Shown here piece after piece: positions 7,654 through 16,926 of a stretch of DNA of 34,763 nucleotides. Each line of letters opens with the position of its first letter. Position 1 is the first letter of the stretch. This DNA is from a virus: IMG/VR virus record IMGVR_UViG_3300030101_003682, positions 1-34,763 of that record. One strand, 5' to 3'. Under the pieces are notes generated by a model. It was not told the origin of the DNA and did no database searches. It saw only the letters and a list, made by a program, of their open reading frames with translations. A program made the position numbers and the translations under genes.

Positions 7654-8682
7654 TTATTTTTGTTTAGTTAAATATTTGTTTACTACTTCAAAGTTCTCAA
7701 AAGAGTCATTGTAGTCTAACATCTCATCTATTTCATCTTCGTAAAAGTGCAAGTCACTGCAACACTTGTCACAATATAAATAGTCTTGTCCAAACTCACT
7801 GTCTTGTAGCTCTTTATTGTTGCAGTAATAACACATAATGTTATTGTCTTTGTCTACAACTATCTCTGATGTGTAGTTGTTGTTATATGCATAATCTAAA
7901 TCATAGTCAAAACCACTATAGTCATTTTGTGTGTCGTACTTGTGTGCAAACTTTTTGTTACCCAAAGCTGTAAAGATATGCATACACATAGACAAACAGT
8001 TGTCTGCATCTGTAAACACTACAACCTCTGTATCTGAGTGTGGATTGTAATAACCACAAGACATGTTAGCAACTGATACACCTATACCGTTCTGTGCTAG
8101 TTGTCCTACATCTGTGATTGCACCTCTTGACTCTTGATAGCCATACTGCTTGATAACAGGGGCTACAGCTTGTGCAAAGTCATCTGAGTATAGCTGACCA
8201 CTGATAGAGTGTACAAAGTCATTGTTGCCTCGCCTGTCACCCTGTAAGCAATAAGCAACGTCAGTAAAGAAAGACATGTCTGCATTTCTGCTACCAATGC
8301 AACCTATCTCTTCTGAATGAAAAAATACACATTTGATAACGTCAAAAGACATAAGCATTTGTAAGCAAAGCCATATACCTACCTTGTCGTCACCACCTAC
8401 GCCTACTTGTTGCATTTCGTCTGAACTAAATGCAAAAATTTGGTCGTTGCTTTCGTGTACTGTAAAGTGTTTGTGTATGCTGTGTACTGTATCTGTATGA
8501 GATACCATGCATGGATAAGAGGTTGACTTGCCTTTGGTTACATATACGTTGTTGTCTTTGATGCAAGACTTGACGTTTGGCAAAGCGCTACAAAAGTCAT
8601 GTATGTATGCAATCATGTCAAACTCGTTACCGCTTGTAGTTTGTATAGATAAAATGTCAATAAGATGTTGTTTTCTAGTCAT
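7654..8682 (-). CDS. M20/M42-type metallopeptidase with C-terminal zinc ribbon
   Basis: A 342-aa protein with the di-zinc aminopeptidase motifs of peptidase T/M20/M42 in order: SHTDTV (H62, D64), GGDDKVGI (D99), HSEEIG (E124, E125), LQGDRRG (D149) and NPHSDTE (H215). All metal and general-base positions appear intact, so activity is likely. The catalytic region is shorter than cellular M20 enzymes (no clear lid/dimerisation domain). Residues about 275-320 add a CYYCNN...YCDKCC zinc ribbon, not part of the usual family. It is the first gene of the third early unit and has its own promoter and leader hairpin. The substrate is unknown: peptide scavenging, peptide-signal destruction or a non-peptide amide are all possible. 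Confidence 0.8.
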   Translation of the reverse strand: MTRKQHLIDILSIQTTSGNEFDMIAYIHDFCSALPNVKSCIKDNNVYVTKGKSTSYPCMVSHTDTVHSIHKHFTVHESNDQIFAFSSDEMQQVGVGGDDKVGIWLCLQMLMSFDVIKCVFFHSEEIGCIGSRNADMSFFTDVAYCLQGDRRGNNDFVHSISGQLYSDDFAQAVAPVIKQYGYQESRGAITDVGQLAQNGIGVSVANMSCGYYNPHSDTEVVVFTDADNCLSMCMHIFTALGNKKFAHKYDTQNDYSGFDYDLDYAYNNNYTSEIVVDKDNNIMCYYCNNKELQDSEFGQDYLYCDKCCSDLHFYEDEIDEMLDYNDSFENFEVVNKYLTKQK

Positions 8683-8705
8683 ATGTATAGTTTTAGTAGG
8701 TTAGG

Positions 8706-8776
8706 AAAAAAAGACAAGAGAGTGCTAGTAATAAAAGATTGGAATGAAAAATAACATAGTTTTGCACCCTCTTGTC
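8706..8776 (-). terminator. long-loop hairpin plus U-run in leader of the peptidase gene
   Basis: Arms GCACCCTCTTGTC (8764-8776) and GACAAGAGAGTGC (8713-8725) pair over 13 bp with one G-U, with a 38-nt loop, followed on the minus strand by seven U (8712-8706). It lies downstream of a strong promoter and upstream of the 8682 start, so it can only act as an attenuator of that gene, the end of a small RNA, or the terminator of the preceding unit. Confidence 0.6.
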
Positions 8777-8778
8777 AT
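8725..8778 (-). CDS. putative 17-aa leader peptide
   Basis: ATG at 8778, TAG at 8725-8727, encoding MTRGCKTMLFFIPIFYY. The ORF spans the 5' arm and loop of the leader hairpin and its stop codon touches the 3' arm, so a translating ribosome would open the hairpin. No strong ribosome-binding site is visible. It may be coincidental. Confidence 0.3.
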   Translation of the reverse strand: MTRGCKTMLFFIPIFYY

Positions 8779-8792
8779 AACAAAAATCACTG

Positions 8793-8823
8793 CAAAGATA
8801 CGAAAAATATTTGTATGTACAAA
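8793..8823 (-). promoter_or_regulatory. Bacteroidota-type promoter for the third early unit
   Basis: On the minus strand a TTTG box (8820-8823) and a TATCTTTG box (8793-8800) are separated by 19 bp, an exact match to the Bacteroidota -33/-7 consensus. The transcript would begin near 8787, within the gap between the SSB-like gene and the peptidase. Confidence 0.75.
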
Positions 8824-10696: not shown

Positions 10697-10728
10697 AAGA
10701 AAAGTTTTAGTTAGTAAATAATTTTATG

Positions 10729-10857: not shown

Positions 10858-11946
10858 TTAAAAATAGTGTGTAATACGTGCTACTTGTCCATTTTCTTTT
10901 TCGTGTATAAACCCTTCCACAGCCTTATGAATTCCACAATAACCTTTTCTGTGATGCCAACTATCAGAACCACTAGGGCTACGAAGATACTCAACAGTAA
11001 CACCGATATAATCTTTCGCATCTTGCCATTTGTATTTAATTTTATGGTGCAAATGATGTAAATACCAATATCTAAATTTTGTGTCAGCCCAGTCTTGCGA
11101 TTTTTCTTGCGCCATTAGTAAAGGTAATTTATCCATTTTTGCAGCATCACCATGCTCAAAACCAATTAGGCTTTTACCATATTTATAATATTTTCTGTGT
11201 GCAACTCCAACGTCAAAACTAACATCTTCTGCATTTCTAAACCAACTTTCTAAGTTTTTTGCTAAGTGATATCCGCTTTGATAATCATGATTTGACATAC
11301 AATGCACCACATCTACAGGCGCAATCTCTCGTAGTCTTTCTATACATTTTACATATAAGCTCATTGCTATATCTAAATGTTCCCACCACTTACCATCAAC
11401 ATCTTGTCTTGTGCCTTTTGTTGTCGTATTATATACATTGTCTATATGCAAAACGTCATTACCGATACAAAATAAAATTTTACCAATAGCAAAACCATTT
11501 GACTTTTGTATCAAACCTTCTATACCTTCTATTACTCTAACAAATGCTATATTACTATTATATTCTTCTCCTGTCTCATCACTGTTTGCATACTTACCTA
11601 TATGTATGTCAGCAGGATTTACAACTAACAAGTGACTGCCTTCTCTTTTTCTAGCAATTTTAGGATACTCAGGTGAATATTCTTGTATAAATTTAGAAAC
11701 ATTTTTTATTATTGTTGTTTCATTTACACCTAAATTTTCTTTTGTAACTACACTAAATCTATAATCACCATTAGCTGATTGCCAATGCTTTACAGACACA
11801 ACATCTTTTTTTTCTATACCCCTTTCTTTTAGATGTAAATCTAGTGCTGTATTGTCATTGATATTGTCTAAGGTCTTACCTCTAAACTGTCTTATTATAT
11901 CTTCTTCTTGTGGTGTAAGCCTTAGTCTTTTACCATAAATTTTCAT
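10858..11946 (-). CDS. calcineurin-like metallophosphoesterase
   Basis: A 362-aa protein with the metallophosphoesterase motifs in order: PADIHIGK (D113, H115), GNDVLHID (D164), MSNHD (N219, H220, D221), FEHGD (H265) and LHHLHH (H297-H301). The Gly of the usual GNHD is Ser, otherwise the metal ligands look complete. The first ~100 residues read as a winged-helix-type segment (LTPQEEDIIRQFRGKT, LKERGIEKKDVVSV), so DNA binding is plausible and the enzyme is probably a nuclease or DNA-end processing phosphoesterase rather than a protein phosphatase. It stands alone between a leader with promoter and terminator and a downstream hairpin. Confidence 0.85.
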   Translation of the reverse strand: MKIYGKRLRLTPQEEDIIRQFRGKTLDNINDNTALDLHLKERGIEKKDVVSVKHWQSANGDYRFSVVTKENLGVNETTIIKNVSKFIQEYSPEYPKIARKREGSHLLVVNPADIHIGKYANSDETGEEYNSNIAFVRVIEGIEGLIQKSNGFAIGKILFCIGNDVLHIDNVYNTTTKGTRQDVDGKWWEHLDIAMSLYVKCIERLREIAPVDVVHCMSNHDYQSGYHLAKNLESWFRNAEDVSFDVGVAHRKYYKYGKSLIGFEHGDAAKMDKLPLLMAQEKSQDWADTKFRYWYLHHLHHKIKYKWQDAKDYIGVTVEYLRSPSGSDSWHHRKGYCGIHKAVEGFIHEKENGQVARITHYF

Positions 11947-11976
11947 ATCTTAAATTTAAATAAAAAAAAACACGAT

Positions 11977-12014
11977 AAAAAAAAAGAGTGAGAAGTTATT
12001 AACTACTCACTCTT
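11977..12014 (-). terminator. strong intrinsic terminator
   Basis: CTCACTCTT (12006-12014) pairs with AAGAGTGAG (11984-11992); after one mismatch four more pairs close a 3-nt loop. On the minus strand it is followed by seven or more U. It ends the late operon after the holin gene, but it also lies between the promoter at 12060-12088 and the start at 11946. Confidence 0.85.
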
Positions 12015-12036
12015 AATACCTAACTAAAACCATCAT
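12013..12036 (-). CDS. putative 7-aa leader peptide
   Basis: ATG at 12036 encodes MMVLVRY; its TAA (12013-12015) runs into the first base of the terminator stem. A small CATTGT/ACAATG hairpin (12031-12048 region) covers the start. No clear ribosome-binding site; could be chance. Confidence 0.25.
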   Translation of the reverse strand: MMVLVRY

Positions 12037-12059
12037 TGTTTACACAATGCCTAGTAGTG

Positions 12060-12088
12060 CAAATGTATCAAATTATTATGAAAACAAA
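12060..12088 (-). promoter_or_regulatory. Bacteroidota-type promoter upstream of metallophosphoesterase
   Basis: TTTG (12085-12088) and TACATTTG (12060-12067) on the minus strand are 17 bp apart, matching the consensus exactly. The start would be near 12053, leaving a leader of about 105 nt that contains the intrinsic terminator. Confidence 0.75.
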
Positions 12089-12098
12089 GGCAATTATA

Positions 12099-12290
12099 CT
12101 ATTTTTTTGCGATATCTGCAATACCTTGACCAAGTATTAGTGCAATTATAGAGTATAATATTGACTCAGTTTGCACAGGGTCAAGCCCAAAGTTGTCGCT
12201 TAGTAGTTGTACAAGCACAGCAACTATTGCATACCAAAATTTTTTTGACCTAAACATTTGTCCTATTAAATATTTTTCTAGTAGTTTCAT
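12099..12290 (-). CDS. probable holin
   Basis: A 63-aa protein: a basic start (MKLLEKYLIGQMFRSKKF), a hydrophobic stretch at residues 19-31 (WYAIVAVLVQLLS), a short polar turn (DNFGLDPVQTE) and a second hydrophobic stretch at 44-60 (ILYSIIALILGQGIADI), then Lys-Lys. This two-helix layout with a GQGIAD motif fits small phage holins. It directly follows the DUF5675 lysis-enzyme candidate and is the last late gene before the terminator at 12014. Confidence 0.6.
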   Translation of the reverse strand: MKLLEKYLIGQMFRSKKFWYAIVAVLVQLLSDNFGLDPVQTESILYSIIALILGQGIADIAKK

Positions 12291-16262: not shown

Positions 16263-16282
16263 GCAGGGGTTTTACCCCCTGC
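16263..16282 (-). terminator. GC-rich hairpin after tail-tube-like gene
   Basis: GCAGGGG (16263-16269) and CCCCTGC (16276-16282) form a 7-bp, all-GC-rich stem with a 6-nt loop, 11 bp past the stop at 16293. The downstream U-run on the minus strand is weak (AUAUUUUAUG), so partial termination or 3'-end protection of the upstream message is likely. Confidence 0.6.
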
Positions 16283-16868: not shown

Positions 16869-16896
16869 TTTACTTCTTTTTTTATGTTAAAATTAT

Positions 16897-16918
16897 GTGG
16901 AGGCTTTTACACCTCCAC
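16897..16918 (-). terminator. hairpin after major capsid gene
   Basis: GTGGAGG (16897-16903) and CCTCCAC (16912-16918) pair over 7 bp with an 8-nt loop, 9 bp after the capsid stop. No strong U-run on the minus strand. It may boost or protect capsid mRNA relative to downstream genes. Confidence 0.55.
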
Positions 16919-16926
16919 GTTAATTA

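Follow-up and report, generated by a model that had tools for sequence, protein, structure and literature searches.

A predicted small-RNA gene at the late/early border of a virus genome, with a linker complementary to the starts of early genes

In virus record IMGVR_UViG_3300030101_003682, a minus-strand promoter is separated by an intrinsic terminator from the exonuclease gene below it, which raises the question of whether the terminator governs that gene by read-through or ends a separate transcript. The window, by which we mean the whole stretch of 34,763 nucleotides analyzed here, makes up most of the 39,460-base record. A late block, marked by portal, head maturation protease, tape measure, and terminase genes, borders an early block opened by the exonuclease gene, and the element lies at this border, with a 63-aa gene stopping at 12099 (minus strand) just upstream of the promoter. 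Among the cultured phages listed for the portal protein, the best E-value was obtained with the marine Nonlabens phage P12024S. This match and the promoter type together suggest that the host is probably a marine flavobacterium; two narrow scans of GTDB for hosts or prophages, one with protein and one with an exact RNA pattern, gave 0 matches. The features at the border are as follows.

12060..12088, minus strand: P1, promoter of the predicted small RNA, TTTG-N17-TACATTTG, of the Bacteroidetes sigma-A type (sequence and conservation in relatives)
11977..12055, minus strand: predicted small RNA of ~79 nt (fold, covariance model, and position of the consensus box)
12029..12055, minus strand: 5' hairpin with a CATTGT/ACAATG core and outer pairs (fold and relatives)
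12015..12030, minus strand: unpaired linker GUUUUAGUUAGGUAUU, the proposed pairing region (fold; complement enriched at gene starts)
11977..12014, minus strand: intrinsic terminator of the predicted small RNA, with nine T (fold and compensatory changes)
11951..11958, minus strand: P2, second promoter-like box TAAATTTA with one mismatch (position conserved in relatives)
10858..11946, minus strand: exonuclease/metallophosphoesterase gene, 362 aa, downstream of the RNA unit (PHROG 704 DNA repair exonuclease, E 6.7e-67)

Read along the minus strand, P1 is followed by the hairpin CATTGT-GTAA-ACAATG, by GGTTTTAGTTAGGTATTAA, by the terminator hairpin, and by the exonuclease start at 11946. A first-pass annotation had placed a promoter at 12088-12060 upstream of a canonical terminator at 12014-11977; both sites proved correct to the base, and the terminator alone has a predicted energy of -14.0 kcal/mol (z -5.3). 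Neither was among the sites listed by a generic sigma-70 plus terminator scan. The window contains 8 copies of the strict pattern TTTG-N17-21-TAnnTTTG, compared with 2.6 in shuffles, and three of the five on the minus strand (12088, 10759, and 8823) lie directly before early genes. As had been noted, two of these three early promoters have a terminator between promoter and gene, since a terminator-like hairpin follows 12088 and 8823 and is lacking after 10759. In Flavobacterium psychrophilum the TAnnTTTG box lies at -12 to -5 (PMC9723704); P1 is of this flavobacterial type, and the small RNA would therefore be expected to start near 12055. The resulting 79-nt RNA is predicted to fold at -21.7 kcal/mol (z -3.8) into the 5' hairpin, the linker, unpaired except for its first two bases, and the terminator. 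A covariance model built on 43 relatives recovers the RNA in the window, while an Rfam search yielded no match at the gathering score in 11 sources, the element itself giving sub-threshold hits only.

A protein search for relatives returned 80 loci. After loci that lacked the element or were cut at a contig end had been left out, 50 sequences with distinct upstream regions, window included, were retained, and all 50 carry a strong terminator with a TAnnTTTG-like box 40 to 63 nt before it. The same order of promoter, 5' hairpin, unpaired linker, and terminator, usually followed by another promoter-like box located at the exonuclease ATG or immediately upstream of it, was seen at about 70 unique loci from many related phages of the ocean. 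The exact TAnnTTTG box of P1 is present in 62 of 70 unique loci (3.9 in shuffles), and the box was found in 68 of 70 loci of a second set. Compensatory changes affect 6 of the 11 terminator pairs and, in one subclade, the 5' hairpin as well; the 5' part folds better than shuffled sequences (mean z -2.5 over 61 unique sequences). Using the terminator-loop pattern alone, 51 usable loci were recovered, of which 49 lie directly before the exonuclease gene and two are chance matches in coding sequence. A scan for another subtype led to the analysis of 70 copies, with at least 66 before the exonuclease gene, three preceding a different gene, and one at the edge of a contig. Each of the larger contigs carries one full copy of the RNA (16/16).

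These results bear on an account of the locus in which the hairpin is a plain terminator of the late operon and the promoter above it is a chance or residual sequence, with no functional RNA. The hairpin does stand at the very end of the late block, the expected place for a terminator, and it probably also ends the late operon. A plain terminator would have no conserved promoter or RNA above it, whereas here P1 is kept far above chance and the folded 5' part and the linker, which a terminator does not need, are conserved. Moreover, one clade of relatives (L015-L044 and L072) has neither the RNA nor a terminator at this place. We regard this account as very improbable. As judged from sequence, the element has its own promoter and its own terminator, as a free-standing small-RNA gene should, and the unit, in its promoter, structure, terminator, and position, is well supported; its transcription and the ends of the transcript are predicted from the same features.

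Whether the exonuclease gene depends on P1 can be judged from the region below the terminator. Applied to P2, the -12 to -5 rule places the expected transcription start on the A of the exonuclease ATG. The P2 copy in the window deviates from the pattern at one position and lacks a clear -33 box. Across 70 unique related leaders, an exact TAnnTTTG lies between terminator and ATG in 26, compared with 5.1 in shuffles; 15 of these boxes are exactly 3 nt before the ATG and most of the others about 24 nt before it. In the second set, TAnnWTTG was found in this interval in 69 of 70 leaders. In the distant cultured phage snusmum, the exonuclease gene directly follows TATATTTG, with just a direct promoter at this place. 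The best reading of these leaders is that a promoter of its own, situated below the terminator, serves the exonuclease gene. Two further observations were made in this interval. In the window (11946-11958), as in relatives of the L007/L019/L100 type, the box lies 3 to 4 nt before the ATG, so that the predicted mRNA would have almost no leader or none, and in L004, L006, and L010 a TTGAAACTGCT-type unit is repeated between the terminator and the exonuclease gene.

The first-pass annotation had suggested a phage-wide conditional read-through, which the comparison does not support. At this locus it amounts to an attenuator: the exonuclease gene would be transcribed from P1 when a leader peptide, an antiterminator protein, or a structural switch allows the terminator to be read through. 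P1 does stand above the terminator, and the 7-codon ORF (MMVLVRY) that stops at the stem and the CATTGT/ACAATG hairpin are both present as described; phage P12024S, too, has a promoter, a terminator, and a gene in this order with no obvious second promoter. Against this, a gene dependent on read-through from the upstream promoter is hard to reconcile with the P2-like box below the terminator in nearly all relatives, so that the leaders of related phages match the very case, a gene promoter below the terminator, that the annotation had named as contrary to its proposal. The ORF is kept only in the nearest relative; an ATG ORF of at least 4 codons occurs in 18 of 67 RNAs, and the encoded peptides are unrelated. 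No conserved leader peptide was found among the leader ORFs of relatives, and no competing antiterminator fold was seen in the predicted structures, where the terminator is very stable. Attenuation at the 12088 locus was rejected on the grounds of the second promoter-like box and the unconserved ORF, and we consider it unlikely. An aside in the same annotation, that two small RNAs might be made, pointed in the right direction for the 12088 element, which forms a free-standing small-RNA unit in relatives.

The annotation had also described the same architecture before the peptidase-like gene at 8682.

8690-8823, minus strand: leader of peptidase-like gene 8682, with a promoter at 8823, 13-bp stem arms at 8776-8764 and 8725-8713, a 38-nt loop, and a T run (sequence)

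This leader is real and of a different kind. It has no promoter below the hairpin, and in L109, L130, and L095 a promoter drives the peptidase gene with no terminator between them. A second copy of the small RNA at this site was considered and rejected, given the long loop as well as these two differences. The peptidase leader could itself be an attenuator and is the better candidate for one than the exonuclease locus. It contains a 17-codon ORF (MTRGCKTMLFFIPIFYY) whose codons span the 5' arm and end just ahead of the 3' arm. Other structured sites were observed elsewhere. Another terminator-like intergenic RNA follows a gene ending in DDLPF in L100, L043, L012, L022, L109, and L130, with GGTTAGTAATT...CAGCG.TTATACTT...GATTACAATTCC shared by the L043 and L100 copies, and in the window two strong GC-rich palindromic hairpins between late genes, at 16263-16282 and 16895-16920, were listed on both strands by a terminator scan.

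Complements of the linker end no more than about 15 nt from the ATG of early genes of the same phage. Three such sites in the window are proposed as targets.

10704..10714, minus strand: proposed target CTAACTAAAAC, 7 nt before the ATG of gene 10696; the longest linker complement in the 39-kb genome
10463..10471, minus strand: proposed target CTAACTAAA, 9 nt before the ATG of gene 10453; a 9-nt complement
8690..8705, minus strand: proposed target CCTAACCTACTAAAAC before the ATG of peptidase-like gene 8682; the most stable linker duplex (-18.5 kcal/mol) among 1643 minus-strand windows

In relatives, the complements reach 18 nt ending at the ATG (L017) and 16 nt overlapping it (L104), and 13-nt complements were found in L012, L128, and L053. 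Of 38 distinct linkers, 28 have their longest sense complement at a gene start, where 10% would be expected, and the sense strand is favored over the antisense strand by 26 to 3. Over 17 contigs, 64 of 158 matches of at least 9 nt fall at gene starts, compared with 13.2 expected; in 6 of the 17, gene starts are not the main site of the longest complement. When the window is taken by itself, 12.5% of trials with shuffled linkers attain the gene-start count that was observed. The strongest test of targeting is the swapping of linkers between phages, in which linkers were assigned to types by eye and ATG ORFs served to predict the gene starts. A linker fits the gene starts of its own phage better than one taken from another phage does, with P < 1e-5 for 11 types, P = 7e-5 for 15 types, P = 5e-6 for 17 types, and an exact P of 0.0014 for seven near-complete contigs representing 6 types. 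No such matched signal was seen when six held-out linker types, all from short contigs, were analyzed by themselves (P = 0.7). Complementarity to messages encoded elsewhere thus exceeds chance, although the held-out short contigs failed to show it. Repeats resembling the linker complement were also observed: tandem CTTAACTAAC-type repeats about 1.2 kb after the RNA in L130 and, in L014, an ACTA repeat run up to the ATG in the leader of the gene at +1787.

The core motif is AACTAA. It was predicted that relatives without the RNA would also lack this motif, and the prediction failed, as AACTAA is just as common before their genes (39% versus 35%). The RNA therefore probably makes use of a leader motif whose presence has some other cause. 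The same finding, together with the held-out linker types without a signal, would suit a free-standing small RNA with some other function, such as protein binding or action on host mRNAs, its complement at gene starts being a by-product of a common leader motif. The better fit of own than of swapped linkers and the matches of up to 16 to 18 nt argue against such a by-product, and we hold this explanation to be improbable, less so than attenuation.

The reading that we prefer, with a probability of about 0.65, is that the locus is a free-standing small-RNA gene whose product is a trans-acting antisense RNA masking the phage's own early translation starts, with the exonuclease gene served by its own promoter. 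P1 would give rise to the ~79-nt RNA made up of the 5' hairpin, the unpaired linker, and the terminator hairpin; the linker would act in trans, pairing with short stretches at or immediately upstream of the start codons of several early genes of the same phage; and this pairing would most likely block the start of translation, so that early expression is damped. We infer the targeting of early messages, the pairing itself, and its repressive sign from complementarity and its position. Bacteroidetes hosts initiate translation without Shine-Dalgarno sequences, and a broader form of the proposal, which we put forward tentatively as the less probable version, is a general off-switch: the RNA would mask a shared AACUAA-like start-site motif used in place of the Shine-Dalgarno sequence, turning down an entire set of early genes and perhaps some host genes, and linker and leaders would change together as the phages diverge.

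To our knowledge, little is known of gene control in Bacteroidetes phages. If the preferred reading is true, the RNA would represent a new family, directed against a group of early start sites, and would offer a simple means of timing infection, and the start-site motif would become experimentally testable; a terminator between promoter and gene need not mean an attenuator. A limited literature search found no published description of this RNA. Among cultured phages no carrier was found, BLASTN matches being weak; of these, the ones in Polaribacter phages were inspected and rejected as carriers because they are antisense matches to coding sequence. The leader of Nonlabens phage P12024S (JQ823122) is similar in layout: a TATATTTG promoter is followed, after about 60 nt, by a terminator and then a gene, at the same late/early border in front of a metallophosphatase-type gene. 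It differs in that the RNA model does not match it, its phosphatase is not alike by BLASTP, and it has no obvious second promoter.

Phage antisense RNAs that pair with the phage's own mRNAs include the C4 RNA of phage P1 and the CI RNA of phage P4. Compared by description, the sar RNA of P22 and the OOP RNA of lambda are likewise short phage RNAs that pair with their own phage's mRNAs, and sar blocks the translation start of ant (PMC12197685). Rfp18 of Flavobacterium psychrophilum (PMC9723704), also compared by description, resembles the present element in being flavobacterial and in its predicted pairing with several mRNAs through one region; it differs in being a chromosomal host RNA whose pairing region is the third stem-loop and whose loss lowers target mRNA levels (PMC9723704). 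Both sar and OOP are antisense to a single gene, whereas the RNA described here lies apart from most of its proposed targets, which seem to be several, and belongs to phages with Bacteroidetes-type promoters. We propose that it would work like the phage antisense RNAs sar and OOP but is encoded apart from several of the messages that it may control.
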